The notes beneath the pieces are model-generated. The model worked only from the letters and a program-made list of their open reading frames with translations, made no database searches and was not told where the DNA came from. A stretch of 64,000 nucleotides of DNA from Nereocystis luetkeana. Its lineage: Eukaryota > Sar > Phaeophyceae > Laminariales > Laminariaceae. The translations under genes and the position numbers were made by a program. The stretch spans positions 5,753,858 to 5,817,857 of the forward strand of contig JARUPZ010000020.1 in the NCBI GenBank assembly GCA_031213475.1, given 5' to 3'. This document shows, one piece after another, positions 3,366 to 53,553 of the stretch; positions within the stretch are counted from its first letter, which is position 1, and each line of letters starts with the position of its first letter.

Positions 3366-3412
3366 CACAGCGTGCATGTACATGTATGTCTACACACCGC
3401 ACAGGAGCTCCG

Positions 3413-4527: not shown

Positions 4528-4650
4528 TTTCCCCCCCTCGCCCCCGCCCCCCCCTATTATATGCCTGGTGTGTATAATATACTTGTACTTCCCCCCCCTC
4601 GCCCCCGCCCCCCCCTATTATATGCCTGGTGTGTATAATATACTTCGTAT
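4528..4650. repeat. 61-bp C-rich tandem unit, two in copy A, one in copy B
   Basis: A unit made of CCCCCCCTCGCCCCCGCCCC followed by TATTATATGCCTGGTGTG occurs twice in copy A; copy B (about 49009-49065) has it once. This explains the 61-base length difference here. Confidence 0.9.
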
Positions 4651-4735
4651 ATATATAGGTTGGGTTGGCGTCGGTTGGCGACGACGCTGTGAAACACGCC
4701 TCTTACTGCGTGAGCTAGACAGCCGGGGTACCGTT

Positions 4736-4826
4736 TTTGTTGTTGGTGTAGTAGTAGTTGTTGTTGTTGTCGTTGTTGTTGTTGTTTTTGTTGTTGTAGT
4801 TGTTGTTGTTTTTTGTTGTTGTGTTT
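4736..4826. repeat. GTT/TTG microsatellite (copy A; copy B 49152-49242)
   Basis: Imperfect (GTT)n with a few TTTTG interruptions. It creates a spurious valine-rich open frame on the plus strand. Confidence 0.95.
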
Positions 4827-4990
4827 TTCGCGGTCACCACAGCTGGCGGTCGAGTTCGATCATTTTTTGCGGGGAGAACCTCCCCTTCTCACGTCGAGGA
4901 GAATCGTATCACGTAGTGTGTATATGGTGAGGCACCCAAGAGGCAGTTACATAGTAAACCCATTGCTGTCTCTGGAACTGGCCACACCAG

Positions 4991-5652
4991 AAACTGAATC
5001 AATTCATTGACGCTGTCATCCATTTGCAAGAACATCCGCCTCAAGAGAGGTTCTTCGTAGGATGCAGCTCGCCCTTCATGCGACTCGTCCGACATATCAC
5101 GGTGTTTGGCGCTTGGTGCAAACAGTGTCTGCCTGGTCGGTGAAAACTGGACGTGCTCCGCCCCGGCATTGTAGGGATGCGAGGGTCTATGGTCATACGA
5201 CTACGGCCATGTATGATAATGAGTGCACCCCCCCACCTCCCTCCCTCTCCTTGTTCTGTTTTTTACACTGCTTCATCACTGATTGTCGCCAGAATCCTTT
5301 CCCCATGTTCATCGCCATGGTCAGCCGCCGTCTCGAGTCAGGCCGATTCTTTGCCAACGATTTTCACGCCGACGGTACGATGCGCGAACTTGACCAGTCA
5401 AACGTCGCCATCGCTGCCGTGCTCGTGTCGACGTGCTCGTTCATGTACAGCTACATATGTGTTTGTACCCCCCCGTACAACGGCCTGCACGAAAACTTTT
5501 TAGTTGTAAACGGAACTCTGTGCTGCCCCGCTTGCTGCTGTCACGCCGTCGCGCCCGCAAAAGGTGTACCCCCAAGAGGGCTACGATCGCGTGTCCAGCA
5601 CGGAGGGGATTCAGGATCTCCTCCTCCGCCACTTCCCGCACATCTCCAACAG
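4991..5652 (+). CDS. Candidate three-exon segment of unknown protein (copy A)
   Basis: Three stretches with strong G/C third positions and splice-like edges. From 4991 after CACACCAG: NQFIDAVIHLQEHPPQERFF and on to GAWCKQCLPG, donor uncertain. From 5293, after a long pyrimidine tract ending GTCGCCAG: FPMFIAMVSRRLESGRFF through DGTMRELDQSNVAIAAVLV. From 5564: VYPQEGYDRVSSTEGIQDLL to HFPHISN, with donor CAACAG|GTCTCC at 5652. Junction phases could not all be reconciled. Downstream, 5690-5849 has a further G/C3-rich frame (AEVAIVWSAARVRPGG) ending in a stop. Family not recognised. Copy B has the same at 49407-50068. Confidence 0.4.
4998..5230. repeat. Dispersed repeat, member 1 (copy A; also 49414-49646)
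   Basis: About 230 bases matching, in inverse orientation, 35122-35358 at roughly 75% identity by eye with almost no gaps. It overlaps the first candidate exon at 4991. Confidence 0.8.
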
Positions 5653-5849
5653 GTCTCCAAGGGCCAGTCGGCCTTCAAGCCGTGGGGGGTGCAGAGCTGA
5701 GCGATGGCGCCGAGGTGGCGATTGTCTGGTCCGCAGCACGCGTGCGGCCGGGTGGCCTAGCGGTAGATGCAGCGGTGGTGGTACCGGTGACTGCAGTGGC
5801 GGCCGTGCCGGCGGCCTCAACGGCAGGTGTTGGAGGGGGTGTGCGATAG

Positions 5850-8800
5850 TGCAGGTTTGTTGGGGGTACTCGCCAGTGTCTCCCACAGCAATGTGCAGAG
5901 GTGCAACAAGATTATCACAGGGTCAAATTGAACACTGCAGTAGGCACGGCGCGGTCCCATCGCGAGGACAGTTCCAGCTCGAGCGCTAACCTCAACTTGA
6001 AGTGGGAGTCAGCGTTAAAATTGAAGGTATAAGGTCGCAAAGCCGCATGTCATATGTTCGTAATATCGAGGTTCAAACTATGGCCGACCGTACCAGAAAT
6101 ACCGTTGAAGTCGCGCTCACGGCTCACTCCAAGGAGAAGGAAAACATCCGTTCACCCTTGAGCAAGGGGGCTAGCGGAGATACGCTTGAGTAAACCGTGG
6201 TATGTCGGTTTTGGGCCAGGCAAACGTTTTTAAGCGGCACGTGGTAGGTACTCGCACAGACCGGAAAGAGGACGGCGGACCTGTTGACGGGCACTTTGCG
6301 GGTTTGGGTTTGCGTGTTCGGTTGGTGAGTTGGACTTGAGAGCATCCGTCTGTGCTGAAGGGATGGATATATCCACATAGGGAAGGAAGTGCAGTAATAT
6401 TCTGGGGAGAATAAGTTGTGTGACGCGCTGACTCCGCAAGTAAACATAAATAGCCGCCACGCCGCTGGTATCTCGCGTAGGAAAGGCACTAGTGACTGCG
6501 TTGGGAGAGTAGGCCAGGTGTGGCCTGCTTCGTTTCCTTCACAGGGTCAGAGGAGAAAATGTTGTTGTCTTTCGCCTACCTCCCGGAAGTGACTCATTTT
6601 TTTGCGGGGGCAAGCGGCCGATCTCTCCTGGTGGAAGACGTGAGTTTAGCGGTGCTCGTTCTTTTTTTCGGTTGTTTTTCAACTTTTGTCAGTATTAATA
6701 CAGTAGTAACGTAATAAGTGTGACCCCGGGCGAGTGTTATCGTTCACAAGTTGCGTTGCTATGCCAATGCCGGGGAACGTGCGTGAACGTCGGGGGCTTA
6801 AACACTACTGTTGTGTGTACCGTACGTGGCATGTGTGTATTAATACTGGTAGTACGTATGTACTTACTGGTGAGTTCATTGCTTTGTGAATGGGCGTTTC
6901 TGTTTATCGATGTATTTTTCGGTCTGAGCGGATGACTGGACGGTGACAACAAAGTGGTAAATGGCACTATGTTAATCTCCAAGCAAGGAAAACAAGGGGC
7001 CGCAGGCCTTGGGACCTTGCGCCTTGCCTGACTTTGCCTTGTCTTACACAGCAGTTGACACAATCAATCAACGTGAACGCTCCAGGACAGCGCCCTGTGG
7101 CTCGCGACTACCTGATGGTTTGATGGGAGGTTGTAGGCTACCGATAGACTACTGCTCTACTTCCGCTCACTTCACGTACGTGGTTTTAGGTGCTTCCGCT
7201 TTCTATTTTTTCTGCTGCGACTGGCACGGACTTACCGGTAAGTATGTCATGTGTTTGGTATGTGTTTGGTCGAACTTCGTTGCACAGTTGTGCAGTAAAT
7301 GTCTTTTCGGACACACCCCATCTGACTTAATGGTTGTTTCGGACCGGTGGACAAGAATATAATTCCCCAATAGCAACGGTGGGTTCACACGTAATAAGGA
7401 AACATGTTCGTGTGCTTTTCGAGGGAGAGCTGGCTGATTGATTCCTATAGCTTATGCTTGTCAGGTCGCTTCTAACGGTTTCCGACGATATCCGAAAGGT
7501 GTGTGTACGTGTCCGCCTGCAAACTAAACCTACGACGCCCACCCCCCAAACGATGCCTATCGAACACCCCTCCGACGCCACCCACTTAGCCGTTGGTCAC
7601 ATCGCTCATCATACTAATCCCAGCTTGTTTGACGTCGCCCGTTTGATGCTGTGCTGTTTTCCTCCTCTCTCGCCGAACATCCTTACGGCCGTTCTTGTAC
7701 TACTCCAGTATCGTTTGGATGACTGCAAAAAATCGAGCATCTTAGGAGTCCCAACCCAAACGCGACCGTCTGTGATCACTGACAAACGTTTAAAATCTAC
7801 TGCGAACTGCTGGCCACTCGCGCCCCCTCGTGGTGGACTCTATTCGACTCGGTTCCCTTCGAGTGGCCGACCCTCCCTGCCTCCCTCTCTCCGTCCCTCC
7901 CTCCCTTCCTCCGTCCCTCCATCTCTCTTCCATCTCTCCTTCCCATTCCAGTCGAGCTGAAGCGATCATAACTTGAGTATGAAGGTGTCAATAAACCAGC
8001 ATTTGATGAAACGCATGAAACAGAAATAGCCACTGGCATCACGACCCTATATACTAATCATGGAAATGTTTCAACGTAACAACGCATTGAAGCCTCTTCG
8101 ATAGTCGTTTTGTGACCACAGAGCTTGGTCTCTCTGCGATGAAGAATCAGCACGGACACGGGGTGTGCTGGATGCCGTCTTTGATTTTGCTTCTGTGTCT
8201 TTCTATGTTTTTCCCGAGAGTGTAGACGAGTAGGCTCTCCAGCTGGACTAAAACCAACGAGCGAAGAAAAGCTAAAACGCACCGCCGAGCCTTATAATGA
8301 TTAGGCGCCGATCCTCTTTTTGTTGAGCCGCCGTTAAATTTCGAACTCGCCGCCGCCGAAAAGACTGAGAGTTTTATGCAACACACGTACTTCAGGCTTG
8401 ACTCACGCATTGATTGAAAAAATCGGTCGGGCGTTAGCCTCGATCGCGCCGTCACGAGCAGGGGTAGCTGACCCAGAGACAGGCCGTTTTCGCTCAGGCT
8501 CGCCTCCGACGGTTCGGTGTGGGGGAACAGCGAAGATTTGGCTAAAAATGATAATCGGAGGTTCGCTTCGTGCTTCGTACCATCAATCAGTCGCTGCGTG
8601 TAATACCGCGAACAAATTGAGACTCATAGCTCACGCTTCGCATATGGCGAGCTCTGCCCATCTGCGTTCTTAAGCTTGAGAATGCCAGGCTTTGATCAGG
8701 TCTCAATTCCTGGTTCCTGGACTAATTCATCTGTGTTATGCTTGAGGTGAAGAAGACATTGGTGGTCATTAGTGAGATATTCATACCTATATCGAACTCA

Positions 8801-9100
8801 GCATTCGTAGGCACTTGTTTTTAATATGTGCCATGAAACGGAGATAGCCAGTTGTGCTCCCGAGCGTATCATACACATATTGAAGTAGTCATCATGCGGA
8901 ATAACTTTTTTTACAGCAGTGCGAAAAACAATCGACCTCGACAGATAACCAACCCAGGGCCAGCCCGATTCGTATCGGGCAATGACAGCGAATAGGGGGT
9001 GTGCACGATGCCCGGGGCAGGTATGGAATGTACGACTGCTGTATGATACGTACTGAGTAAATTATCACTTAGTAAAACTGAGTATCTGTTTTGGTAATTG
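5850..9100. other. No convincing gene
   Basis: Apart from the open frame at 7454-7960, I see no domain, exon pair with matching phases, or RNA gene. A CCTCCCT-rich pyrimidine stretch lies at 7870-7945. Confidence 0.4.
7454..7960 (+). CDS. Hypothetical 168-codon open frame (copy A; also 51866-52372)
   Basis: Reads MLVRSLLTVSDDIRKVCVRV, a His/Thr-rich middle, a hydrophobic stretch (SPNILTAVLVLLQY) and a low-complexity Pro/Ser tail from a CCTC-rich tract. Open in both copies. No splice context or family supports it. Confidence 0.2.
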   Translation: MLVRSLLTVSDDIRKVCVRVRLQTKPTTPTPQTMPIEHPSDATHLAVGHIAHHTNPSLFDVARLMLCCFPPLSPNILTAVLVLLQYRLDDCKKSSILGVPTQTRPSVITDKRLKSTANCWPLAPPRGGLYSTRFPSSGRPSLPPSLRPSLPSSVPPSLFHLSFPFQSS

Positions 9101-9104
9101 CAAA

Positions 9105-9105
9105 T

Positions 9106-9133
<28 letters not shown>
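9105..9133. repeat. TCTG tetranucleotide microsatellite (copy A; copy B 53516-53547)
   Basis: About seven perfect CTGT units, one unit longer in copy B. Confidence 0.95.
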
Positions 9134-9138
<5 letters not shown>

Positions 9139-9246
9139 CGCATGCCTTAGATTTTCGAACACCTTCCAATGATCGATATATAAGGCCGTTACAGACGATA
9201 TTCGTACGACGTATTCGACTCTTGCGGACCTTATAAAGCGGGACCG

Positions 9247-9467
9247 GTTCCACCTGAGTGCGGCAGCCGTTCCCGCACCGCACTTATTCCACTTGAGTGC
9301 GGCAGCCGCACTAAAGTGGGATGCATTCGTGTCTAGAGATTTTCACCGCACTTATTACGTGGGGCCCCGCACTCAATAAAACCGCGCATTCAGGACTGCA
9401 GTCCCATTTTGAGGGCAAATCATTCTAATTCCAAGTACTTTGTTCCCCAAACGGGACTGCAGCCCTA
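9247..9467. repeat. Small repeat cluster with inverted GGACTGCAGTCC ends (copy A; copy B near 53660-53882)
   Basis: TGAGTGCGGCAGCCG occurs twice 40 bases apart (9255-9309). Downstream, GGACTGCAGTCCC at 9393 and GGGACTGCAGCCC at 9453 face each other as a roughly 20-base inverted repeat with a 30-base spacer. It could be a remnant of a small non-autonomous DNA element, but no target-site duplication was found. Confidence 0.5.
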
Positions 9468-9606
9468 AAAGGATTCAGTGGGACCCCCGCCGTACTGAAA
9501 AATCTACGGAGGGAAAGGATTTAACGAAATTTCGAAATGGTGTTCATACCGAAATAATTTACGAACTTCGAAAACGGTGTTGTTATGTGTTGCGTCAGCG
9601 TACGAG

Positions 9607-10215
9607 GTACCAGGTACTACTTCTGCTGTAGGGAGGGAGGTACAAGGAAACAAGGAGGAGCTGGCAGGCAGGCAGGCAGGGAGGGGGGGGGCGAGTGGGA
9701 GGGAGTGACGGAGGAGGGAGGGAGGGAGTGACGGAGGGAGGAGGGGAGGAAATGAGGAAGGTAGGGAGCGAGGGACGGACGGACGAAGAGAAGCGGCAAG
9801 GAGGCAGGGACGGAGGACACCCTTTGCTATTGCCGTGCCGCTTATCGCTTGCAGCACAGTCCAATAATGAATTTTACCCATTTTTCCACTTGAAAATAGA
9901 CTTGACGAAGGTACCAGGTACTACTATTGCTGTAGGGAGGGAGGAACAAACAAGCAACGAGGAGGGGGCAGGCAGGCAGGGAGGCAGGCAGGGAGGGGGG
10001 GGGGCGGGTGGGAGGGAGTGACGGAGGGAGGGAGGGAGCAGGGCGCGGGGGGAGGGAGGAGGGGAGGGAGAGGGGGAGCGAGGAAAGGACGGAGAGAAGT
10101 GGCAAGGAGGCAGGGGCGGAGGATAGCCTTTGCTATTGCCGTGCTGCTTATCGCTTGCAGCACAGACCAAAAATGATTTTTACCCTACTTTTCACTCGAA
10201 AATAGACTAGACGAA
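9607..10215. repeat. 304-bp tandem pair with purine-rich cores (copy A; copy B 54022-54630)
   Basis: Two units beginning GTACCAGGTACTACT, at 9607 and 9911. Each has a GGGA/GGCA-rich core of about 190 bases, then TTTGCTATTGCCGTGC and GCTTGCAGCACAG. The purine strand is the plus strand in both units. Confidence 0.9.
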
Positions 10216-10861
10216 CAGTTTTTCCGCTGGCCTTTGGGGAGCGATTGCTGCTGCTCGACCCGTCACCCCGATTGGGATGCTGGAAGTCAACTCTGATAAC
10301 TGCACATACAGGGGCACCCGAAGAGGTATGGTCTGGACCATGACGATCGCCCCCGCGAGGGCTTCGACCTGATGCGTGCGGCATGGGCATAGCCGTTTGG
10401 AAAGAAATATGTCCGTAGGTGGCCATTGAGTGACCCTGATCGGACAGCCAGACAGACAAACAACTTTTCTGAATCCGTTTGAGAGACCACAAGTGTACCA
10501 CTTGTGGAATTATAGAATAGTTCTGGGCTGATACGGGCCGCGAACTGATTTCCTTGGAGTCGTTTTTTATTAAGCGCGAGGTCGAGGGGAGAGGGGAGGA
10601 GTATGACTGTAACTGCTGTAGATGCGAGTACGTGTAAAGAGCGAAAGATCCCGCTGGTCGGCGGGATACTGTGAAATGCCATGCACCAAGGGAACCGAGT
10701 GCCTCGTACGGAAATAACACAAAAATGAAACAAATCAAATTGAATTGTGTCAACAACAAAAACAACAACACACGTTGATAGAGACTCGGACCATAATAAC
10801 ACAAGCCCGACGCAAGTTGGTGCACGTGGCAGTACCCCCAAAACTTGCGATGTATAAACAC
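10148..10861 (-). CDS. Hypothetical 237-codon open frame (copy A)
   Basis: One of the longest open frames outside low-complexity DNA. It begins MFIHRKFWGYCHVHQLASG, then a hydrophobic segment (VLLFLLLTQFNLICFIFVLF), then Ser-rich sequence. A second frame on the same strand (10287-10871, 194 codons) is open over the same DNA, so composition may explain both. The 3' end runs into the tandem unit at 9911-10215. Copy B (54571-55284) keeps the full length. No family recognised. Confidence 0.25.
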   Translation of the reverse strand: MFIHRKFWGYCHVHQLASGLCYYGPSLYQRVLLFLLLTQFNLICFIFVLFPYEALGSLGAWHFTVSRRPAGSFALYTYSHLQQLQSYSSPLPSTSRLIKNDSKEISSRPVSAQNYSIIPQVVHLWSLKRIQKSCLSVWLSDQGHSMATYGHISFQTAMPMPHASGRSPRGGDRHGPDHTSSGAPVCAVIRVDFQHPNRGDGSSSSNRSPKASGKTVRLVYFRVKSRVKIIFGLCCKR

Positions 10862-10871
10862 TTTTGCCCAA

Positions 10872-12200
10872 GCTCTCTAGATCTAGGACTGGCGAAACGT
10901 TGTCGCTAGAAACGAAGCATCAAGCGCCGGAAGTGTCCCATGCGTCATACCCTCATGCACTGCTAAACAATTGGCATGTACTTCCCACCCTATACTGTAC
11001 CTGCTAGCGCCTTGTGTGTTGCGTCTTTATCAGCAAAACACTTTGCAATTCGTAAAACGAGCTGGGCCCGCACAAGCATCCGATAGACAAGCACGTTCAA
11101 GCCCAACGAGCTCATACACAGGCTACCATCTACTTACCCGCCGTTTTCAGACTCGTAAAATACGGATAATCTTGCTGCGCCGTTTACAGGTCCACCAGGA
11201 CAACCGCTCCCCCGTCCCCGACTTGCCGCTGGCGTCCAATCGGCTAAATGCTAGATGCACATCGAACCTTAGCCCTGACTCGGGGTAGTGCGTCCGAGGA
11301 AGTCACACCGACCACCCCCCCCAACTGTTCATCACGTGGTAGCTTGTCCGAGGCCGTCTACTATCCGTCCCATGTATCAGTTATCGTCATGGACCTATAC
11401 GTATATATTGTAGATGCGTTTATAATGTTGTCTTACCACCCGAAATATGTGAGAAGCCCCGAATGAGCCATGCTAAGGTAAGATTGCAGATACGAGTGTG
11501 TGTACGGTTGCTATCCTGCAGGCGTCATCAAACTTGCCTAGAGCCCAGACTAATATTACTAGAAGCGTTTGACTGTTACTCAATCCCTGCTGAAGAAACA
11601 AAGCGCCCAAAACAGAACACTCGTAGCGCGCAGCAAGGAGGCATGCTTCTCACACACAAAACCAGTGGTCGAGATGCATCAAAGCCGAATATACTAAAAC
11701 TGGCAATACATGCTTTATGCAGGGTCTCAAAACGTCCCTACGTTCTGCACGCACTAGAACTTTAATGAGGCGACATAATTACAACATCGCCTGCAGCGCA
11801 GACGTTTGCTCAGTGTTTATCCAGACCCGCCCTTTACAACCAGTATTGCTCAACACGAAAAACCGCGCATTCAATACTGAACGGAGTATAAACACGGCAG
11901 TGCTACGTATAGCTATCGAGAATGATCACGGATTTGATATGTCTCGGGGTCCCACTCAAAGTCGACTAAGGTTCTTCGAACCAATGCGATAATCGCTAAA
12001 CTGCTGGTGCCACTATATTGACGAGGTCTGCATGCATCTACCTCTCGCCCTCTACCTCTAGCCACGACAAATTCCCTGCTAAGTAGAACGGCGCATCAAT
12101 GTATTCCCTATTGCCGCGAAGCAAGGGCTACAAATTGCCAGTCAAAGGGTAGCGGACCTGAAGCACATCTTCACAATCCCGGCAACGAAAAGCCTCCACA
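10872..12200. other. No convincing gene; one outlying satellite unit
   Basis: Bases 11195-11370 are a diverged unit of the 250-bp satellite (CCCCGACTTGCCGCTGGCG, GTGCGTCCGAGG, GTAGCTTGTCCGAGG). The remaining open frames lack codon bias or motifs. Confidence 0.45.
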
Positions 12201-12204
12201 AATC

Positions 12205-13175
12205 GAGTGCGAGTCCCTTCGTCTGGTAATCTTCCCCTACGATGGAGCAAAACAACTCCCACGACAAAATTGACACCCTCCCGCCCCCGACTTGTCGATG
12301 ACGCTCAACGGCTAGACGCCAAATGCGCGTCGAAATTCGGCCCCAACTGTATACTACCTGCTACGTGATAGCACGTCCGAGGATACCCCACACACTATCA
12401 TCCCCAACTGTATACCATGCAACAACTTGTCCGAGGCAGTCCAGTACCCGTTCCGTGCGAGAGTCCCTTTCTCTGGCAACAATTTTCTTGCGGTGGGGAA
12501 ATACAACTCGCACTACAAAATAGACACCTTCCCGCCCCCGACTTGTTGATGACGCTCAATGACTAGGCGACAAATGTGCATCGAAATTCAGCCACAAATG
12601 TAAACTACCTGCAACGTCCGAGGATGCACCACGGACTATCATCCCCAACTGTATACTACGTAACAACTTGTCCGAGGCTGTCCGATACCCGTCCCGTGCG
12701 AGAGTCCCTTTCTCTGACAATATCTTTCCTACGATGGAGCATGACAACTCCCACTACAAAATAAACACCCCCTCGGCCCCGACTTGTCGATGACGCTCAA
12801 CGGCTAGACGCCAAAAGCGCATCGAATTCGGCCCAACTATATGCTACCTGCTACGTGATAGCGTGTCCGAGGATGCCCCACATACTATCATCCCCAACTG
12901 TATATCACGCAACAACTTGTCCGAGGCTGTTCTATACTCGTCTCGTGCGAGTCCCTTTCTCTGACAAGATTTTCCCTATTGTGGAGCAAGACAGTTCTCG
13001 CAACAATATATATATTTTCCCCCGCCCCCGCCCCCGACTTGTCGCTGAACTTCACCCCCAACCGTTTACCACGTGATAGTGCGTCCGAGGAAGCCCCAAA
13101 TGCAATCACTCCCAACGGTATGTGACCGTGGTAGCTTGTCCGAGGCTGCCCAATATCCGTCTCATGCGAGTTTCT
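12205..13175. repeat. About 250-bp satellite, four tandem units (copy A; copy B about 56630-57600)
   Basis: The anchor CCCCGACTTGT occurs at about 12289, 12540, 12781 and 13036 (periods 251, 241 and 255). Each unit also has a shorter internal repeat built on CCCAACTGTAT and TTGTCCGAGG. Outlying partial units are at 11195-11370 and 13755-13895. Confidence 0.9.
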
Positions 13176-13251
13176 TTAGCTCCCCTTCAGACAAAGTACG
13201 AAGGGAACTTTTTGGTTGACTCCGAAAAATGAGCCTTTAGGCAGAAAATAA

Positions 13252-13615
13252 GCATTTTACTCGGCTGGGCACTCAAAAACACCAATACACTCCTCAAGAT
13301 CCACCCTGAAGTATTCCGAGGGCTTCTGGAGCACTTTTCCGTTTTCCAGAGCCACAATTTGAGTTTGGTCTCAACCAATCAACGTCCTCCGCAGGGTCAT
13401 ATTCATGATTGTTCGTCAGAAATGGGGCCAGAAATAATGGAGTTTTGCAGGTTTTCCCTTCAAACTCATCTTGTCCTCAGAACTGACAACACGGACAAAC
13501 AGTCAAACTACGACTCTGGAGAAACGGAAAACCGCTCCAGAAAGTTCACGGAAAACTCCGGGGGGGCATTCTGAGAGTCTACCGGTGTTTTTGATTGTCC
13601 CGCCAAGCAAAACGC
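13252..13615. repeat. Foldback with about 120-bp arms (copy A; copy B about 57674-58037)
   Basis: Left arm 13252-13371 and right arm 13495-13615 are inverted copies at about 70-75% identity by eye, sharing for example CTCAAAAACACC and TTTTCCGTTTTCCAGAG versus its complement. The spacer is about 123 bases. No protein is encoded. Confidence 0.75.
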
Positions 13616-14241
13616 GTATTTCGGTGAAAACAAATGGTTCTCAGAGCCTAAACATATGTCCCTATAACAGGTGGTCTCAGGTGGAGCAAAAACAACTTTC
13701 GCCGCAAACTAAACTTTCAACTTGGTGCTGACGTGGAGGCGGTCAGACGTCTAATACGCAGCGATCTATAGTCCCAACTGTATTCATTGCAATAGCATGT
13801 CTGAGAATGTCCCATGGGCTACCATCCCCAATTGTTCATCACACCCTGGCTTGTCCGGGGTTGTATACTATTCCTCCCACACAACTACCTTGCCTCAGCG
13901 GTATTCGTAGACTGTGTATATACCAGGTGTAAGATTTGCCCCAAAACATATATCAAACAGTGCCGGGTAGACCCTACACGTTGAATCAGCCGATATGGGT
14001 GCGCACGCGGTTGCCTACCAGTCTGTGCATCTGGCATTCGCCAATAACCCAGGCCGTCAGAAACTCAGAATACGCACCACCTGGCCTAATCCCTATTCCG
14101 TCCTGCAGAACGAAAACCACTGCAGACACCTCACGCCGGGCAACGCTTTCTGCTCGTCCGCACACAGACGTACACCCAGCAGGTCGGTCAAGACACACCA
14201 CACTGTTACTACCACCCTCTCCGGCGTATGTACTACAACGC

Positions 14242-17200
14242 CTAGGCGACGCCCACCCCACGCCGCTTGGCGTAGGACAGGACGTACGCCCCGCTTGTCA
14301 AGGCCTCAGCTTCGGTGACTGGAATCACTTTGTCATCGTTAAACCGGTACCACTGGTTGGCAGTGCCGCGGACGAAGGCCACGTAGTGGCCCGTGTGCGC
14401 TGTGCCCCGGTGGTGCACGACCGCTTGCAAGTCGTACATCACAGGTGCTGCGGTGAGGATGCGGTGGGGGTGGGAGCAGCGTGACGGTATGTCATTGAGT
14501 CAAGCACGTGAGAGAAAACACCCAAGTGCGTGCAGTAGATGGCGATAGGACAAAAAGACACTCGTGTCGTCACGTTATAGCTGCATCAAGCATGCCGTTG
14601 TTCGTCATTTTGATCCTGGCGTGAGTGCATTTGGCGATCGTTAGGAAAAACAGCCGCTTTCTTGAACAATCAAGTGCAGTCCTTCAAGACCTTTCACGTC
14701 AACGTCAGTGAGTGTTGACGGTTCGCGCTACCGCAGAAGCCCGCCACACCAACTAGAACGTCAACAGCACCTCGAATAGTCTAAATATGATGCTCGTTTC
14801 TACTCGGAAGTGGACGAAGCCACAGCAGCTCGTTTTTGCGTCGGCATGAATTACCCCATCGTACGTATCTAGACGGCTACGGTCGCACCGCACATGGAAA
14901 GGTTGCATAAGGTCACCCAAGGTGCCCAGAAATTGATCGACGGATGTAATTGAATATTATTTGTATACAAGCATAAATACGACGTACGGACAGTGAGTAT
15001 ATATGGAGCGCAAGATTGCTTACCCCCGAATAGCCTTCCAACTTCCGTGAAGGGGCCAGCGTCCAGGACGATCGGGATGTCGACCAAGTGTGAAATCTTC
15101 TCCCTTCCACTGATTGGTAGGCGGCAAGGACCACGGGCGGCGCGCGTCGATCGGGTGGGTCACAACGTGCATTTGGACGACCTGGGATAGGACTCCAAAC
15201 AGGTGCACAAACTGGAATGTATCGAACGCCACGTCAAACCCTGCACAAACTGGGATGTATTGAACGCCACGTCAAACCCTGACTCTATGCAAATCGCGCG
15301 ATCTGAAGTTAACGATATGCTATTGTTCCATGCAGCACACCAACATGGAGCGGCCGACGATCTCGTTGACTCCAAGTCTGCAACCACGAAGTAGTCAAGC
15401 CCTGGAACACCAAAACAGACTGTTAGTGTGTCAGATCACGTGCTATGCTTATAGGTATAATGTTGTTAGCATGCCTAAAGAAAGAGAAGACCTGAAGCTT
15501 CAATGGATTCTTGCTTATTTGCTTGTTTTCGAAACATGCGATATCGCCAGCAACGCCTTGGGAAGGCCAAAACGCAGCCCAAATACGCCGAAAGCTTGTT
15601 TTAAGTATGAGGATGACATTGCTGGCCCGAAACGGCGCTTCCAGTGGTCACTCCACTTCCCCACAGCTGTGGGTTTGTAGCAATATTGTTTGATAAACGA
15701 AAAGAGCGCATGCGCAACACGGACAATACAGCAGCACAGGACCCAATCACGTCTACGCCGTCCACGCTGGGAGGTGCCAATAGCAACTTGTGATCTGATG
15801 CCGACATGCGAAATATCGATGGTATCAACCCGACGACAGTCTTATGTGCCCGACGCTTATATGGCATCAATCTCGGCCGAGTAGTTGGCAATTTGTCGAC
15901 TCGGCCCTGCCACACGTGCCAGAAACGTAAAACACGTCTTGCTTCGCCCTGAAGTGTGCGTTTCGATAAGCACATAACTCACCCGGTTTTGGTCATCGCA
16001 AACCGACCGAGCTGCAGAAGCCACTGGTCGGGGCAGCTACCAAGCATGGTCGATCGTTTCCTCCCGTCGGCTATCGCCTGCGGAGCGGCAGTTAAAACGC
16101 AAAATAATCGGTTCATGCTTACGTGCAGGAATTGCTTCCATCGGCTTCGATGCGGACCCCTGCCTCCCTGGTAGTGCTTCGACACCTCGCATCAACTAAA
16201 AGCATTGCCGACATACCAAACAAAAGGTGCGAGCAGATCATCAGCGTAGGGCTATCTGCGATTCCACACCTGAATCATACCAGGACCTGACTGCAGGTAT
16301 CGAATAAGTCGAGGGGGCATGAGGGGAATTCCAAGACCCAAGACAGCGGTAAGCGCTGAACATGAAAGGAGGAAGAAAACGCCAACCTAAAAGGCACAAA
16401 ATTCTGTCACAGGGGGGGGAGAGGTGTTCAGAGGAGCTGCTTCTCTTCGATATATGCGCAGCGACCAATCGACTCAATGGCAGCTCACCTGTCGGCAGTC
16501 CCCGCACGTTTCGATTTGTTCGGTGCCGAAAACCTGCGCTCGTGTGTGCGCATACCGGCGAAAGAACGAAAACCAGCAAGGGTGCGGGGTGCCGTCGTCG
16601 GGGGCATGGGTCATTGTCTGTGCAGCATACATCGATTTCGATGTGCTCGATCCCGCGGTCGCGTGCAATCGAGGTGCGGCACCGAGAACACGCATGCAAT
16701 CAGATTCGCCTGGGACCAACGGGTGTTCATAAAACATGTTTCTTTCTCTCTCGCTTGGTAAGGTGTATCGGCAGGGAAACGCGTTGTACACATCCTTCTT
16801 TGCACAATGTATAACTAAACTTCAAGCAACGTCACGCCAAACCTTCGTGAGCAAGTCGGAGAGCTTCACGGAACGCGCCCCGCCTCCTCCTCCTCCTCCT
16901 CCTCCTCCTCGGCCTCCTCCTCCTCCTCCTCCTCCTCCTCCTCCTCGGTCTCCTCCTCCTCCTCCTCCTCCTCCTCCTCCTCCTCCTCGGCCTCCCCCTC
17001 CTCCTCCTCCTCCTCCTCCTTGGCCTCCCCCTCCTCCACCTCCTCCTCCCCCCCGCCCCCCCCCTCCTCCCCCCCCCCCACTACCTCCTCTTCCTCCAGT
17101 CCCCCCTCCCCCCCCTCGCCCCCCCCCCCCTCCGCCCCCTCGTCCTTTTCTTCCTCTACCTTTTCCTCCTCTTCCCCGTCTTACTTTTCCTCGTCCTCCT

Positions 17201-20200
17201 CCACCTCCTCCTCCTCGTCCTCCTCCCCCCCCCCCCCCCCCCCCCTCCTCGCCCCCCCCCCCCCCCCCCCCGCCCGCCTCCTCCTCCTGCACACCCCCCT
17301 TCCCCCCCTCGTCCCCCCCCCTTCCCGCCTCCTCCTCCCGCGTGCTTGCCCCCTCCGCCCTTGCCAGTCCCCCCTGTCGCACCGTTGGCTGGCAGCTTCT
17401 CCATGGGCACAGGAAGAACGACAAACTCGTCCAGAGATTGCGTTTGCTGCAGGCGAAACACACACGCAGGTAGGCGGCAGTCATCTTACGATTTAAACCA
17501 CCAGTACACAGCGCGCATGAAGACAACACGCCGGATGACAACATCCAACTGGCGCTAAGGCGATTCTACTCCATTTGAGGCAGAAAGGACTTTGCGATCG
17601 TGCGATAGGATTGCAATGCACGCCAGTGTCTGAACGATTGTTGCCGCCCTTTCGCTTTTGGGTAGCCTCTACGTTGTGGCGGGTGCCCGTTCACGTGCTG
17701 CAACGCATTATTCCCGCCAACCAATCAGGGACCGATCAAAACGCGCAGATTCAACTTCCGTGCCCCTGCACTGTTAATGCCATCACTTCGCACCTGGTAC
17801 TGATATGTTTCAAGTGTTGGGACAAAGCCGAAACATCTTGGAGACTCAGGACCACAAACCTAAGAATAGGCCAACCCCTCCCGCTCCAAAATAGTATTCC
17901 ACATAGCTTACCCTGCCACAAGAGCACTTGGAAAGAACGTCGAACTTGCCCGTCATGGCTTCCACCGCCTTGTGGAGGTCTTTCCCCTGCCAATACACAA
18001 TCGCAGGCAAAGCAAGCAGTTGACAAATACGTAAGCACCGATCATGACGCTCACAAGGGCCTACGTGCCGCGTCACCCCAGCGTAGCATAGACCAGGCAG
18101 GTGGCAGTGCGATCGATCCTGATAGCCGTGAGGAGGACATGCGATAAGTCGACCGCCACAACCGAAGGGCAACCACACTAACATCCGCTGGATGGCCTGG
18201 CGGTCACTTAACTTCCAACCGCCCACGGCTACTCTGCCTTGCACACGTGATCCGAGTGTCGCTCAAGATCGCTCTTACCGCAGTTCCCCCGACGCCGGCA
18301 CCTAGGTTGTCCAGGAAGAAACTAAGAACCTCAGCCGCGTCCGCTTGCACGCCGGCGGTGAACTGTTCTCGAAGTGATCCAGATAGCAAGCAGACGAGTT
18401 GGGGGCTCGTCACCAACGCATCGCGAGGCTAGAAGAGGAACAGCTCCCTCATTACGGTTCTCGTTCGTACGTTTGCTAGCGATATGCCACGACACGCACG
18501 CTAGTTGCGGAAGCCACACGAGGGTGAACTCAGGGGCGAAGACATAAGACATTAGGGTTCACCTCTACATACCCATGCTAATCGACACATCGCATAGCTT
18601 GTGCAATTTGGACCTTGGCCGCGGCTATTAAGGTAATGAAGGAGCACCACGACAGCCAGCGTTCGGGCCTATCGTTTCCACATATCGAGGCTGTAAGAGT
18701 GTTCGAGCGCTTCGCACTGCGGCGACGGCCCATTCGGTGTCTCGTCAACGGGTAAGATCAATAGATCGCCTATGTCTCGAACACTTTGCATAGCTGCCCA
18801 TGCCGTTGTTACCAGAGACAAAAGTATGGACGCGTTTCGTCACTTCTCACGTATGGCGATTCGTTGATAGCCTCGAGGACAGTCTGGTTGACCTCGCAGG
18901 CGCCGCCTTCCGGGGCCTTGTCCATGTCCTGATAAATAAAACACGATGAAGTCACGGGAACAAAGCATTGAATGAACAAAAGGAAGGGCCACGAGACACA
19001 TGGGTAACGCAATACGTGCTCACGAGCGTCCTAAAACGGCTGACAGTCAACATTTCCGTCTATATCCCCATTGACTTGCCCCGCTCTTTCAACGCCCGGT
19101 CGAGTCTACACGTACCTCTCTACAGATGTTGCAACAACGATTGCAAAATAAAGACGAGTAGGCAAGCTGAAAATCGTTGCTAGCGCAGAGTGGTTGACGA
19201 TAAAGTACCACACGCCGGCAGGGCACTATCTCGCCGTTTCCACCGACAAAATATAGCTTGATAGGTATCAAATTTCAGTCTGACCTGGAAGAGAGTTCCT
19301 AGTCCTGCCGCCAGTGTCTCCTTGTCCTTCCGGGGCTGGTGTGGTGGGTTTGCTGCAGACCCAGGCGAAAGAGGAAAATACAAGGAAGACGCAGATTAGA
19401 CGCCTATTGGGGCGTAAGCAGGAGTGTGGAGAGAAACACTACCGCGAAAGGCCCGTCCGACGTCACAGCGACTTACAAAGCCACCCGGGCTCGACATCAA
19501 GAGTAACAGCCGTGTGCTGTCGCGATTGCGGACGTACCATGTCCGCACAACTATTAAAAGCTTGGACCTGCTACTGCAGCACGCGCATTCGCCGCAGTAC
19601 GCGCCCGATATAACGATCGGACGCATTCTCGCAAGCAGCTACAGTGTGTGATGGATGTCGATGAGCAAGCAACAGCAGCAGTATACCCCAGCATATTACT
19701 TGCTGGTGTATGACCATGATTCGAGTCCTTGGGAGTCCTCGAATTCGTTAGGATGAGTGTTCCCGTTCAAAGCTAAATGGACGGACAAAAACGGCTATGA
19801 TTCCACCATTTTCAGGGGGAAAGTCTCCTATTCTAGACTTACCCTTGTCCGGCTCCACAGGCTGCTTCATGACACTCTTCACGGCATGGCTGACGATGGA
19901 GATGCTCCGCAGCAGCTGCAGAGCGACATTTGTGGCGCATTGGATGCTCGGGTTTTTCAACCCACTACCTCGCATGGCATCACGAACGTAGGGTTGGATT
20001 GGAGCGAGGAAAGCAAAAAAAGAGTCAAGACCGTTGGCGATGATGTCGTGCCCGGCTGGAAATCACGGTCACACTTGCATAATTTATAAGAGAACCGGCT
20101 GCTAATGACCGCTGAAACCCACGCACGTCCTCAGGAAGACTACCCACGTTTGGGGTCGAAACCATGGCAGTGCGTCGATGTCACCTGTTAGTAAAACCAA

Positions 20201-20390
20201 ACGCAATCAATAAAGCGAGTTTCTCGTGACTGCCAGACGGAATCGTGCAGCTGACACGCATCTCGTATATTCCTAACACTGTCTATTCCCCCCCCAAAGG
20301 TAAAGAGAGAGCACATGCACAAAGCGCTGTGGCTAGTTTCTCTCACGTGCGGTTTGTAGTCTTCTCCGGAGGGGTTCCACTTGATCCGTC
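14242..20390 (-). CDS. Ubiquitin-specific protease (USP/UCH family), copy A, N-terminus not found
   Basis: Cysteine protease that removes ubiquitin from proteins. Exons in transcript order: 20347-20390, 19843-20055, 19285-19352, 18851-18928, 18279-18362, 17912-17986, 17794-17859, 16843-17446, 16489-16533, 15983-16077, 15024-15109, 14242-14447 (stop at 14242-14244). Phases match at every junction except those of the Gly-rich exon 16843-17446, which is 604 bases in this copy and shifts frame by one (540 bases and in frame in copy B). Family motifs appear in the right order: Cys box GLKNPSIQCATNVALQ with the catalytic Cys; AGVQADAAEVLSFFLDNL (the QQDAxEF region); zinc-ribbon pairs KCSCGR and ETCGDC; CPDQWLLQLGRF; KISHLVDIPIVLDAGPF; His box HTGHYVAFV; WYRFNDDKV with the catalytic Asp/Asn position. 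About 530 residues are visible. Exon 20347-20390 is the least certain; a start codon was not identified. The motif order is known family architecture, the splicing is inferred. Confidence 0.85.
15206..15281. repeat. 38-bp tandem duplication in a protease intron
   Basis: Two adjacent 38-base units differing at two positions (GGAATGTATC versus GGGATGTATT region). It lies in the intron between protease exons 15983-16077 and 15024-15109 and is also present in copy B near 59628-59703. Confidence 0.85.
16878..17345. repeat. TCC/GGA microsatellite and C-rich tract coding a Gly-rich loop (copy A)
   Basis: Long TCC runs at the left, then mixed C-runs interrupted by T and CG. On the minus strand it lies inside protease exon 16843-17446 and codes mostly Gly with Arg and Lys. 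It is 64 bases longer than its copy-B counterpart, mostly in the pure TCC part. C homopolymers of up to about 20 bases make sequencing error in length likely. Confidence 0.9.
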
Positions 20391-21081
20391 CTGAAGAAAA
20401 AAGCAAGGAGACGAGCGATAAGGTAAACCCAACAGATGTGTATTACTTCATCTTGAAACCCTCTTTGTTGAAATCTACATGTGCCCTCACTCCTACGTCG
20501 TTTGCCATTACCGGAACAAAAGCGTCCGTCTCAATCACGACTTGAACACAACCTCGCACGCCTGGTCGCGGTCTGCTGTCCCAACGCTTGCCGCTGCGGT
20601 GATATGCAACACAACGCGGAAACCATTTACTTTGCTCGATAAAGAGAGAACGAGGGGGTGGGGGGCAACCACGCCCAGACGATAATGTCCTATACGCTGA
20701 TGAGCGACTAACCACGGAAACATCGACTGGTGCTACTACTGTACGAGGTACGGGCAAGGTATGCATCAAACACAGGGAGTAGACGCAATACAGCAGGGCC
20801 CCCCATGGTAGTTGGCTGTTGTTGAAAGGATAGGTGTGATAGGATGCCCCTGAGTCCGTTGGGATAAAACCAACTACATTGTGGTCGACAATAGTTAATA
20901 TACGATGTTTTCCCGTCTTTGGCATTGTAGCGCATGCTGAACCAAGGCCCTCAAAACGTTCTACCTCGAACGGCTGTCGAAGGATATCGGTGCCACCGGT
21001 CTTGCGCTTCTGACGCTTCCATGTCGTCGCTGTCACCCATCTTTTGGTCCTGTTTGTTTGCGGTATCGCTTGTCGTGTCAG

Positions 21082-21138
21082 GATGACACCGATGCCGATA
21101 CCAACGACGAGTCGGAGTCTGACTCAGACACCGACGAG
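21082..21138 (+). pseudogene. Inverted cassette exon copy
   Basis: Same 57-base cassette as the minus-strand units, with acceptor GTGTCAG before and donor GTACGAAAC after, but on the plus strand. It cannot be spliced into a minus-strand transcript. With the unit at 21181-21237 it forms a head-to-head inverted repeat. Confidence 0.7.
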
Positions 21139-21180
21139 GTACGAAACGATCCTGAAAAGTGTGATAGGGTCGTTTTATAC

Positions 21181-23206
21181 CTTGTCGCCGCCGGCCTCAG
21201 ACTTCGACTCGTCGTCGGTATCGGCACCGGTGTCCTCCTGGTGCGACAAGCGATTCCGAACTCAAACAGGACCAACAGAGGGGTGACAACGACGACATGG
21301 GAGAGTCAGAAGGGCAAGGCTGGTGATAACGGTATCCCTCGACAGACGTACGAGGTAGATAGTTTGAGGGCAACGATATACTTGACCACGCACTGCAACG
21401 TCCGCCACGGGAAATTCTTGTGTGATGTCTATTCTCGACCACAGTTGCCTGTGGTAGTTGGTGATGTCAGACTGAGCTCAGCGGCATCCTATCACAGTTC
21501 TCAGGATCGTTTCGTACCTCATCCGTGTCTGAGTCAGACTCCGACTCGTCGTCGGTGTCTGAGTCAGACTCCGACTCGTCGTCGGTGTCTGAGTCCGTGT
21601 TATCCTGGCACGACAAGCGATACCGCGAACAAACAGGGCCAAAAGAGAGGCGACAACGACGACATGGGAGCGTCAGAAGGGCAAGGCATGTAGTACCGGT
21701 ATCCTTCAACAGACGTAGAAGGTAGACAATTTGAGGGCAGCGATTTACTCGACCATGCGCTGCAACGCCCACGACAGGAAAATATCGTGTGATATCTATT
21801 CTCGAGCACAGTTGCCTGTGGTAGTTGGTGATGTCAGACTGAGCTCAGCGGCATCCTATCACAGTTCTCAGGATCGTTTCGTACCTCATCCGTGTCTGAG
21901 TCATGATCCGACTCGTCGTCGGTGTCTGAGTCAGACTCCGACTCGTCGTCGGTGTTTGAGTCCGTGCTATCCTGGCACGACAAGCGATATCGCGAACAAA
22001 CAGGGCCAAACGAGAGGTGACAACGACGACATGGGAGCGTCAGAAGGGCAAGGAATGTGGTACTGGCATCCTTCAGCAGACGTACGAGCTCGAAAAATTG
22101 GGAACAACAATTTGCTTGATCATATGCTGCAGCGCCCAAGGCGATCAACGATCGTCAACAATCTGCCATACGTGATGCAAATTGGAGATGGAGGGACAAT
22201 TAATACCGTACAGTTTTGTGTACACCCGACATCAAAAGAGTGAGCTGCATTGGATATGTCGCATTTTTGTGCGTACTTAACGACTATGGGCACATTAACG
22301 CCACCTACTAATGTTAAGGCATCATCTTCGGCTGCAGGTCTCTGGTGATTGGGTGTTGTTAAATGGCAATTAGAGCGCTCCCATCACATTCCTCAGAATA
22401 CTTGCGTACCTCGTGGTCGCCGCCAGTTGATCCGGATTCTCCGTCCGTGTCCCCCAACGAACCCTTGCCATCCTGGCATGACAAGTGATATCGCGCACGG
22501 GCACGACCACAATATGGTAGGCAAAGACGTTACGGGCGCGGTTGACGGCACCGGTATCTGTCAGCTGAGCGTAGGAACATCGCCGGCAACGATTCCCACA
22601 ACCATGTGCTGCGGCGTCCACGGTGAGCAACGATCGTATGAGATCTGCACAGAGTAAGAGGATTATGCTGTGGAGGAGGGACCGGACGTGGGGTGCATAC
22701 TTTACTGCCGCAGATTGAGGTGCATATGATACATCTAGTGATGTTTAGTCGCGAAAATTATTGTCGTATCAGCATTGCACGGACGATGCAGAAGGATAAA
22801 ATACGATATGGGCGGGGGTATCCGCACCCGTATCCTTCGGCAGACTCAAGCTTTCCGAAGGCAACGGCCTGCTTGACCGGGTACAACGCCGCCCACGTCG
22901 AGCGACGGGTGACGAGCTCTGCACTAGGGGAAAACAGGATACAGCCTTGCAGGAACAGCAAAACGTCTGGACTAATCGTCACGTCAACACTCTGAACTAC
23001 ACACGTTTGAACACGGTGCGTGGCTGGCGACCATGAGTAATGCCAACTTTTAACACTGTGGTATCGTCCTCGGCATCAGGTTTCCACGCGTGCTGTTCCA
23101 AAGAGCTCGGGTCTACTCCAACGCAGTGCTCGGGATCATGTACCTGTCCGTCGTCACCGTCCGCCAAGGATCCCCCGTCCACGCTTCCAGGTCGGCCCGC
23201 GCCCGG
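21181..23206 (-). CDS. Cassette exons coding Asp/Ser/Gly-rich segments, host gene uncertain
   Basis: Five minus-strand exons, each with a TGCCAG/CACCAG-type acceptor and a GTA(C/T)-type donor: 23144-23206 (63 nt), 22410-22472 (63), 21885-21971 (87), 21518-21604 (87), 21181-21237 (57). All lengths are multiples of three, so any one can be skipped or added without changing frame. Read in phase 0 they are acidic and share a DTD(D/G)ESxS core even between diverged units. Read in phase 2, which is what the flanking exons 23395-23492 and 20347-20390 would require, they are Thr/Arg-rich. The shared acidic core in old units favours phase 0, but the neighbours favour phase 2; this is unresolved. Alternatively they are non-coding repeats with fortuitous splice-like edges. 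Confidence 0.5.
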
Positions 23207-23394: not shown

Positions 23395-26300
23395 CTTATC
23401 ATGTAGCGGTTCCGCACGGCGAGCCACCAACCCTCATGATGTAGGACCCAGCAGTTGGCGCATTGTTCGCATCGTCCGCTGACGTCTTGTCCCTGACATC
23501 TTACTACCCCGTTTGTGGCTGATGCAAAAATAATACGACCGAGCACTTCGATACCCCACGCATACGTCAAGGTGGGGCCTTACAACGTGACGGCACGTGC
23601 AGGGTGGAACTGACAACACTGCGAAGTACGGCGTAAGTGCACATCATCCGGATTCATGCACATGTGCTCTGACTATCCGGCGAGCCATTTTGCGGTCTGA
23701 CACATGTCGTGAAAAGCCAACACATGTTTGTCAGACGCCAGATGCCAGATAGCACACTACCTGGTAAACAGATGGGTTACACGCACGACCATATTCGAGG
23801 AGACCACCTGATCACAGCCATTGACAAGGTATAGTCGATCTAAAAATGTAACCCGAACGCCATCTTTCGCGAGCTTATAAGCTTATACAACGGTCCAGCT
23901 GACTGCGTCAAGTTTCACGAATCGAACACACGGGGACCACTACCTTTCCGAGCATGGTGTATGCTTTCTGTCCAATCGCTATCACAATATTCTCGAAACC
24001 ACGTATCAGTTTTTGGTATTACTATTTCAGGACGACTCTCGAGATCTCCACACACCGGTACCTGCTGAATGTCACCCCAGTCGCCGATCCCGAGATGAAC
24101 ATTAGACGCTAAGATCTTGACGACCGGAAACGCAAGCGCCACGTAGATGCCCAGGACAGGCGCAACCTTCACCGTCAGAAACCACACGACCCTTCCCACT
24201 AGCGCCACCAGGAAGCGCAGAGTAGACGACATGGATGCCGCTAAGGACGCATCAGGTCTCCCTGACCACACCACCTGAATTACGCCGAGCATCCAAGTAA
24301 AAATCAACCCCGGCGGTCCCAATATTCCATGGCCAGTTTTGTCCACAAACACAGGGAATACTTGGGTCAACACCATCAAGTCAATACTGGTAGTCACCAT
24401 TGTACAAATACCAGGACCTGCATCACCCGCACACCTCTGACGGAAGGTTTGATAGAGTCGGACGCTAAGTCGCCCGCCATTTGTTCAGCGGCAGCCGTCG
24501 CCACCGCTCTCCTTCAAGAAGTGAACAGGGGTCTGGCTCTCGTGGTTCTATTTCTAGTTGTCCGATCTACAGCAAAAGTGCTCACCATCGCGTGAAGGTT
24601 GCCTGGGGGGAAACCCTCCGTCCTTGTGTTGAGGTCGAAAGCCTCGGTAGCCGCAGACACCGACGGGATATCCAGCGCAACGGGGTGCCAGTGGTGACTT
24701 GCCAAGGGCAAGCACAACGTGCGGAACGGTTCGCGTGTCAGATCCTTCTGAATCTAAAGCACGCGGTGTGCGTGTGTAAGGGAGTGGCTGCGTCTGTCGG
24801 CAGATTCTCTTGAGGTGTGGGGCAGCAATAGGATGCACCCGAAATGGTTTCGAAGGCGACGCAGTCAGCACATGTATACAATCCAACTTACGGGTATGGA
24901 TTAGTGTGAGGGGTTGATTACGATGCACCTTACCGCACAAATAAACCTCTGGAACGTTGGTCTATACCCCGAGAGCACGGTTGGACAACGCCAACGGGTT
25001 TCCCGGCAGATATTTGAACAAAACCAATCGATACGCCGAAGTGCGGAAACTCGGGCGATTCATTTGTTGTGTGAAAGTACCTCCATAAGGGTGATATATT
25101 GTCTAGCACATGCGACAACCGCCGACTGCAGAGGCTTCCCTGCAGACACGAGTGCCGCCAGGAAGGCAGGCAGTCACTGCCTTGCGTAATCGACCCACAT
25201 TAAAGGTGGGGGCGCTTTGATCGCGTCAAACCTTCTCCGCTTTCACTTCATACAGAAAGCCGTTCCAGTCAATATCAGGGCACATCGGGTATTGCCTTGA
25301 CACAGGACACTTCCCACTCGGAGCAGAACCTTGCTAGTTCCCTTCCCACCCACTCGCAACTTTAGGTTACACAATTCCATCGACAACCCTGACGGTCAGG
25401 TAGCACCTCCACCAAGTTTACGTTTTGCCTTCCAAGCGTTGAGCAACACCTTGCACAATTGACCAATCGTGGGGGTTAAATGTAAACCACAACCGCCCTG
25501 ACTACGTAACAGTAGCAGCCGTGACGTGCATTGGAGAAGAATTGAACAAAATATACATCGGGTAGTGCGCATTAGTTCTTAACTCGATGCTCACCTTTGC
25601 CCATCGCTGGTGAATGCTTGCGCGGTGTATGACGCCCAAAGCTCCCGCTCAACACACCCAACACGCTCAATACGCCCCGTAAGAACCTCGGACCCCTCGA
25701 TAGAACGCTTCCTGCGTTGCATTAGGAGCTTGTAATCCAGTGCTTGCACCTGCAATAGGCACATACAGGAGGCATGGTGGAACGTGTAAAGGCAGGAAAT
25801 TATCATATGCGTACAAAACCCAGCGCGCATACCTTAGGGATAGCGAAACCGTGCAGCTCAACTGTAAACTGTACTGGCATGTGCTACAACCACCTGAAAC
25901 GTTTAGCCACAGCAGTTTCACATTGGCTCACCCTCATGGCGTCCTTCCAGAAATGAGCATCGTGCTGAGAGTTCCATGGGACGCCACCAACGATGGGCTT
26001 CCGGTCGACCAGGTATATCATAGACTCGCCCGAGGCATGGAAGGAACCTGCACAGGTGGCCGGAGTCACGAAGCAACCCCTCGGACACACGCTTTGAATC
26101 GCGAGCAGGAGCGTAGGACCATTGGTGTTGGGGGAGGGTGGGGACGGGGGGCGATCCAGCGCTAAGACACAATCTGCGAGATATCGTGAAGGCTTCAGGA
26201 TTGGCGCTCCGCACCCTTTTGTTCTGAAATACAAGTGCCTTTTGTACATTAATATCTAGTACAAACTGCCCTTTTTAGCGAGAGAGTGGTAGGTTTCACA

Positions 26301-31267: not shown

Positions 31268-32072
31268 TAACTGTCAATTTCGATGCCGCGAGACAAAAAC
31301 CAGATCAATTTCGACCACCAACAGAAAAAAACCCCCAATCGATCCCCACACTCAAAACAATTCATTTTCGGCCCACACGCATAAACCAAGTCAATTTCGA
31401 TGCAATACAAAACCAAAGCTAACTCCGACACTACACCGAAATCAAGTCAAGTTCGATCCCTAGTCTAAAATAAATACAATTTCGATGCCCCGACCAAAAA
31501 ACACGCCAGTTTCGACCCACACATTAAAACCAAGTTATTTTCGACCCCCACATGAAAACCAAGTCAATTCCGATCCCTTCACTGAAATCAAGTCAACTTC
31601 CACTATCCACACAAAATCGAAGGCACTTTCGATCCACACACCAACACCAAGTCATTATCGGTCCGCACACAAAAGCCAAGTCAATTTCGACCACGCATAC
31701 AAAACAAACTTAATTTCGATCCCCACACTAAAACCAAGTCAACATTGGGCCGGAATCAAGAACCAAGTGAATGCGACCCCCCCCATAAAAACAAGTTAAC
31801 TTAAACCCCAACACTGAAATTAAGTCAATTGTGATCTCCACTCTAAAACCAAGTAAATTTCGATACCCGCTCAAAAACCAAAATTATTTTGATCCCCGCA
31901 CTAAAACCAAGTCAATTAAAATCCACACAAAGACCAAGTCATGTTCAACCACTCCACAATAGCCGAGTCAATTCCGATCTCTACACTTAAATCAAGTCAA
32001 TTTCGATCGCCTATCCTGAAACCAGGTCAATTCCGATGCCCACACCACATTCAAGTAAGTCATTTTCGTCCT
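31268..32072. repeat. About 29-bp degenerate minisatellite, about 28 units
   Basis: Consensus unit close to AAGTCAATTTCGATCCCCAC plus ACTAAAACC, repeated head to tail with units of 27-31 bases and heavy divergence between units. The AAGTCA and TTTCGA blocks are best kept. There is no alternation of constant repeat and variable spacer, so it is not CRISPR-like. Confidence 0.95.

Positions 32073-53515: not shown

Positions 53516-53553
<38 letters not shown>

Follow-up and report, generated by a model that had tools for sequence, protein, structure and literature searches.

Short phase-neutral exons coding for disordered sequence are known from the PEVK region of titin, and ubiquitin-specific proteases (USPs) of the USP30 type have a membrane segment before the USP domain; the cassette exons and the host gene described here are likened to these by description only. 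In mammals, the skipped exon 7 of USP15 and USP4 is a cassette coding for a 29-residue Ser-rich stretch of linker, and USP15 in its long isoform has another preferred substrate (PMC5343593). By analogy, USP15 exon 7 would be the nearest functional precedent for the present locus, since it indicates that a linker exon can change the substrate preference of a deubiquitinase, and in both cases a cassette exon lies in the linker before the catalytic part of a USP. However, the mammalian genes have a single such exon, preceded by DUSP and UBL domains and, in the available part of that account, with no membrane exon described (PMC5343593).

The nearest structural precedents, as set out in the available parts of the respective reports, are the leucine-rich repeat (LRR) exon arrays of brown algae and Tetrahymena and the coding VNTR of LPA. 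In brown algal ROCO genes, tandem LRR exons of fixed length (72 bp, phase 2, with positively selected sites) are shuffled and alternatively spliced (PMC11378527). The cassettes reported here share the tandem arrangement in a brown alga, but measure 45-87 nt, are in phase 0 and are linker-like and rich in Gly/Asp/Ser/Lys; none is the 72-bp phase-2 LRR exon by which brown algal LRR exon shuffling is recognised. Tetrahymena arrays of 90-bp LRR exons, attributed to unequal crossing-over, hold 1 to 51 exons, and so are long tandem arrays as here, but in phase 2, LRR-coding and found in thousands of genes (PMC6564038). The kringle IV-2 repeat of LPA, with 1-40 units per allele, is likewise an exon-bearing tandem repeat within a gene, but its units span 5.6 kb, compared with about 0.37-0.5 kb and one short linker exon here (PMC11462820). 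Furthermore, a coding VNTR is defined by alleles in a population, whereas here unit number differs between paralogs of one genome. No cassette-exon array in a USP gene was reported in the literature searched, mostly titles and the opening parts of abstracts. We put forward, with a probability of about 0.7, that the array consists of intron-exon units repeated in tandem within a predicted membrane-anchored USP gene, where it would set the length of a disordered linker.

Cassette exons and their host gene

The window (the whole stretch of 64,000 nucleotides analysed) carries the host gene on its minus strand, in the order 71-codon membrane exon, cassettes, 44-nt linker exon and USP part. The features are:

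24062..24274, minus: membrane exon, 213 nt, 71 codons, phase 0/0, hydrophobic, max KD19 2.15
23144..23206, minus: cassette exon E, 63 nt, PGAGRPGSVDGGSLADGDDGQ
22410..22472, minus: cassette exon D, 63 nt, DGKGSLGDTDGESGSTGGDHE
21885..21971, minus: cassette exon C, 87 nt, with an internal 30-bp repeat
21518..21604, minus: cassette exon B, 87 nt, DNTDSDTDDESESDSDTDDESESDSDTDE
21181..21237, minus: cassette exon A, 57 nt, EDTGADTDDESKSEAGGDK
21082..21138, plus: inverted cassette F, 57 nt, antisense to the gene
20835..21496, no strand: palindrome uniting F and A (self-alignment and RNA fold)
20347..20390, minus: linker exon, 44 nt, phase 0 to 2
19843..19964, minus: USP Cys-box exon, GLKNPSIQCATNVALQLL...
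19285..19352, minus: USP exon (paralog comparison, phase chain)
18851..18928, minus: USP exon (paralog comparison, phase chain)
18279..18428, minus: USP exon with QADAAEVLSFFLDNL, 150 nt
17912..17986, minus: USP exon (CSCGR; paralog comparison, phase chain)
16843..17446, minus: G-rich exon, 604 nt, not a multiple of three
14242..14447, minus: last USP exon, His box (TGHYVAFV...NDDKV) and stop (Pfam UCH)

The first-pass annotation had proposed at least five duplicated minus-strand exons of 57, 63 or 87 nt sharing splice borders and flanking intron, plus a sixth copy inverted at 21082-21138. All six stand, now with exact borders: AG precedes and GT follows each exon (6/6; in A-E a CCAG acceptor and a GTA donor), and every length is a multiple of three with phase 0 open (6/6). 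A profile built from intron sequence only, acceptor left out, recovers all six window units (E 2e-11 to 7e-32), which are among its own seeds. Given these matches and self-alignment E-values down to 0.0, a chance origin of the array is excluded. The arrangement is that of tandem exon duplication, with homologous adjacent exons, shared introns and compatible phase.

Two further proposals hold in part. The 367-base period is confined to C, B and A, the spacing being 501 from C to D and 734 from D to E. The suggested comparison of the array with itself aligns adjacent 367-bp units at 86.8% identity over 575 bp, and F with B at 85% over 178 bp. Youth, too, applies to some units but not to others: in the 150 nt preceding the exon, identity within the group of C, B, A and F is 0.76-0.85, whereas E and D reach 0.61-0.71 with each other and with these four, the shuffled baseline being 0.64. 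We take this group to be young, and E and D to be old. An extended exon that also takes in the conserved 3' portion of the intron was ruled out for B and C, since the frame considered meets a stop at the second codon in the exon. In the last 190 nt or so of the cassette introns, matches between the two arrays (about 76-78%) are longest and often end at the exon; this stretch might possibly hold splicing signals.

Twelve exons chain in phase, beginning with the membrane exon and continuing over the cassettes to the USP part: membrane exon and each cassette 0/0, then 0 to 2, 2 to 1, 1 to 0, 0, 0 and 0. The joined protein matches Pfam UCH (PF00443) with 34 bits over profile positions 1-108 (gathering cut-off 23.9 bits), and the match begins directly past the cassettes and the linker. 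The last exon covers positions 198-254, with 57.9 bits for the exon core and 59.7 bits for the open frame. Both the Cys box GLKNPSIQCATN and the His box TGHYVAFV...NDDKV are present, and we take the catalytic residues to lie within them, as in the USP family. With the UCH domain above its cut-off, the host gene is a predicted USP. The cassettes had been called phase-neutral exons, and that they are such exons of a real gene is well supported: their phases lead into a UCH protease, and paralogs keep the frame with differing cassette numbers.

The exons were found through a diverged paralogous stretch of the window's contig (aligned blocks of 70-78% DNA identity, 11.97-20.8 kb), which has conserved exons and splice sites in common with the window, and it was this comparison that brought the UCH domain to light. 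When 150 of the 225 open frames with at least 60 aa in 19-44.5 kb were compared with Pfam, with follow-ups and considering the best 25 of 36 families, only PA14 exceeded its cut-off. Rfam and tRNA scans and a search for phage DNA were empty, as was a search of PDB sequences at E 0.1 that used the N-terminal part of the USP. No first coding exon of the USP gene was identified at the window locus. The membrane exon was missed by a codon-position scan, and its amino-acid-changing codon differences outnumber silent ones (28 vs 17, 26 vs 10 and 23 vs 9). The same scan flagged an intron stretch of the array, 21403-21278, and thus has false positives. The G-rich exon has a second copy of 540 nt at 61266-61805, 64 nt different in length from the 604-nt one; the first copy might therefore be frameshifted or misread in its G runs, a homopolymer reading error being possible. 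The length of this exon, the codon differences of the membrane exon and its absence from the codon-position scan count against the proposed reading.

Paralogs and the 90-unit array

The search covered a genome of 465,085,209 bases in 1987 contigs, in which the paralogs lie on the window's own contig (C20). An expanded EsV-1-7 domain family marks brown algae, and this family is expanded here (150 scored matches of 1713 candidates, a lower bound), with matches in 0 of 14 control genomes, which points to a brown algal host. The search for further copies of the 367-bp unit, also proposed earlier, scored 40 of 105 candidates and returned at least 88 matches, every one of them on C20. Very common words are skipped by this search, so that dispersal is undercounted and all counts are lower bounds; with the 5.37 Mb unit as query, it failed to return even that unit's own locus. 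The matches comprise ten near-identical arrays at C20 5.72-6.30 Mb, with 95-100% identity in the best unit, and a further array near 7.86 Mb. For the USP exon of 150 nt there are 14 matches, all on C20: the ten window-type loci, 7.857 Mb and more distant copies at 5.376, 8.153 and 8.196 Mb.

Cassette number ranges from one (8.15 and 8.19 Mb) through five plus F (the ten near-identical loci) and at least seven intact (5.37 Mb) to 90 units over 45 kb (7.86 Mb). Both at 8.15 and at 8.19 Mb, a stretch of about 2.5 kb contains, in series, the membrane exon, a single 66-nt cassette and the Cys-box exon. This arrangement links the membrane exon with the USP and reveals a one-cassette state; exon E is the apparent counterpart of this sole cassette. 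The membrane exon there is 60.6% identical and equal in length; it retains AG/GT and its length without indels at 7.91 and 8.15 Mb, the length being equal also at 8.19 Mb. A 44-nt linker exon was read between the cassette and the Cys-box exon at 8.15 Mb, and 44 nt were counted by eye at 7.86, 8.15 and 5.37 Mb. The 4.2-kb stretch examined at 5.37 Mb holds eight units with 45-nt exons, 7/8 with intact acceptors, spaced 486-515 bp and once 719; the array runs past this stretch, which makes the unit count a lower bound and places the membrane exon outside. The intron-profile scan recovers 7/8 of these units and one truncated end unit.

Among the ten window-type loci, E, D, A and F are unchanged, B has five substitutions, and C has three substitutions and, in 2/10, a 30-bp deletion. 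This is the sole indel within a cassette, intronic indels being of 1 and 2 bp, in a count that leaves out gaps at alignment ends. In L010, the most diverged of these copies, the linker exon lacks one base, which would shift the frame and speaks against the proposed reading.

The array at 7.86 Mb runs from 7906297 to 7861503, with 90 units of about 505 bp that are recovered alike by BLAST, by a border pattern (a 63-nt exon flanked by AG and GT/GC) and by the exon-blind intron profile. The border pattern finds a TGCCAG acceptor in 90/90 units; a stricter version finds 73 units. Donors are GT in 73 and GC in 17 units (GTACGAAAC in 69, GCACGAAAC in 17 and GTATGAAAC in 4). The exon measures 63 nt in 90/90 units, whereas introns vary from 420 to 444 nt. 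The 89 units that were aligned together with their intron fall into 15 exon types, all free of stops, and gap columns number 30 of 448 in the intron and 0 of 63 in the exon, the latter value being forced by the pattern. Older units upstream, at 7907659, 7907474 and 7906970, keep both borders, one with a GC donor. A counterpart of exon E at 7909867 was not recovered by the intron-profile scan.

Proposed growth of the array and competing explanations

As each unit bears one short phase-0 exon, any number of cassettes could be spliced in or skipped with the frame kept. With each one, a disordered linker joining the membrane segment to the catalytic domain would gain 15-29 hydrophilic residues. 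Near-identical units would change in number by unequal exchange, which would account for the period being constant, for the big array being homogeneous and for arrays having grown in parallel in paralogs; paralogs would then differ greatly in cassette number because unit number shifts in this way.

In 15/15 chosen exon types, partly picked for being intact, the length is a multiple of three (45-87 nt) and phase 0 is free of stops, compared with 7.8 stop-free types expected after shuffling and 13/15 and 8/15 in the other frames. Gly/Asp/Ser/Lys/Thr/Glu make up 86% of their residues, and hydrophobic residues amount to 3.8% in frame against 20% and 27% in the other two. A different explanation would be a non-coding satellite grown within an intron, in which the exon-like segment goes back to one real cassette (E) as its relic, was copied together with the intron DNA and is skipped in its copies. 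Exons conserved no better than introns would fit such a satellite: among 13 unit types, pairwise identity averages 0.67 in the exon (shuffled 0.63) and 0.69 in the 150 nt of upstream intron (shuffled 0.64). In the big array, exon diversity (0.078; 0.040, 0.121 and 0.072 by codon position) even exceeds intron diversity (0.044). With the exon barely conserved and more diverse than the intron, there is no sign of selection on individual residues. Decayed units point the same way: upstream of the big array, one at 7909329 with the donor lost and one at 7906783 with both borders lost, and 2/8 intron-profile hits at L041 without AG. Nevertheless, borders, multiple-of-three lengths, open frame and composition persist in all chosen types, old ones included. 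The intron profile, in which the acceptor is left out and which provides a fairer count than the chosen types, gives 113 hits, with AG in place at 90/90 units of the big array and at 19/23 elsewhere; among the other four is the reverse arm of a locus on contig C7, out of register with its ACCAG intact. The acceptor window is invariant in the array, as are 13% of 8-column intron windows, AG having been part of the search pattern. We thus regard the intron satellite as unlikely.

The F/A inverted pair forms a 662-bp palindrome centred near 21165, with 72.5% identity, and its minus-strand RNA has a predicted fold of -393.6 kcal/mol (20 shuffles: mean -210.07, sd 5.56; z -33). In the pre-mRNA, inverted F would pair back onto exon A, and the modelled hairpin probably keeps, or at least may keep, exon A out of the mRNA. 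Such strong intramolecular pairing, together with tandem duplicated exons with common borders, could suit a mutually exclusive cluster with one cassette per mRNA, a layout that the first-pass annotation had raised. This finds no support in the cassettes themselves, which are all phase 0/0, so that joint inclusion is tolerated, differ in length (45-87 nt) and in one paralog comprise 90 near-identical exons with little to choose between; we consider it very improbable. The same annotation had envisaged repeats that spread ready-made exons. A mobile fold-back element of this kind could explain why tail-to-tail pairs occur both at F/A and at a solitary C7 locus, where two 48-nt exons are in frame. 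Yet the 367-bp unit matches, among the candidates scored, lie on C20 only, and the whole C7 palindrome as query returns itself and 25 short C20 pieces and no more, counts that are lower bounds in a search that undercounts dispersal. Such an element is disfavoured and seems very improbable. The C7 locus (L044, C7:8584163-8584806) is a solitary palindrome of two cassette copies in the same layout as F/A.

Returning to a tandem repeat that sets linker length, a bolder and distinctly tentative version is a coding satellite: an intron-exon unit homogenised and expanded in the manner of satellite DNA, with selection keeping only splice borders, frame and composition. If so, one to about 94 micro-exons, each spliced separately, would determine how far the catalytic domain reaches in these paralogous membrane deubiquitinases, the 90-unit array alone contributing up to 1,890 residues, and the inverted unit would be a built-in RNA brake on its neighbour. 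Within one gene family of one genome, the expansion series of one, five, at least seven and about 90 cassettes raises the questions of how linker length depends on the number of cassettes, what restricts splicing when small identical exons are so numerous, and whether selection on composition only is enough for a coding repeat to evolve.

Surrounding sequence

The window's ends, 1-19648 and 44482-64000, are direct repeats about 98.2% identical with a 44.4-kb period, and ten copies of this repeat, placed by the array matches, lie in both orientations at C20 5.72-6.30 Mb. The PA14 domain (minus strand, 35015-34755 and 34559-34158) scores 33.7 bits against a cut-off of 24; what is likely a second piece reaches 13 bits and so stays under the cut-off. 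That the domain belongs to the same gene is unsupported, as in the one-cassette paralogs it is the membrane exon alone that is linked with the USP. At C20 7935-7953 kb (L030-L031), the PA14 exon forms a tandem array of its own, with 13 copies at about 1.41 kb, its frame open across the matched part in 13/13 copies and in a fourteenth at 7918 kb. Two further tandem repeats lie in the window, at 12236-12975 (241-bp period, 3 copies) and at 31339-32045 (29-bp period, 24 copies).
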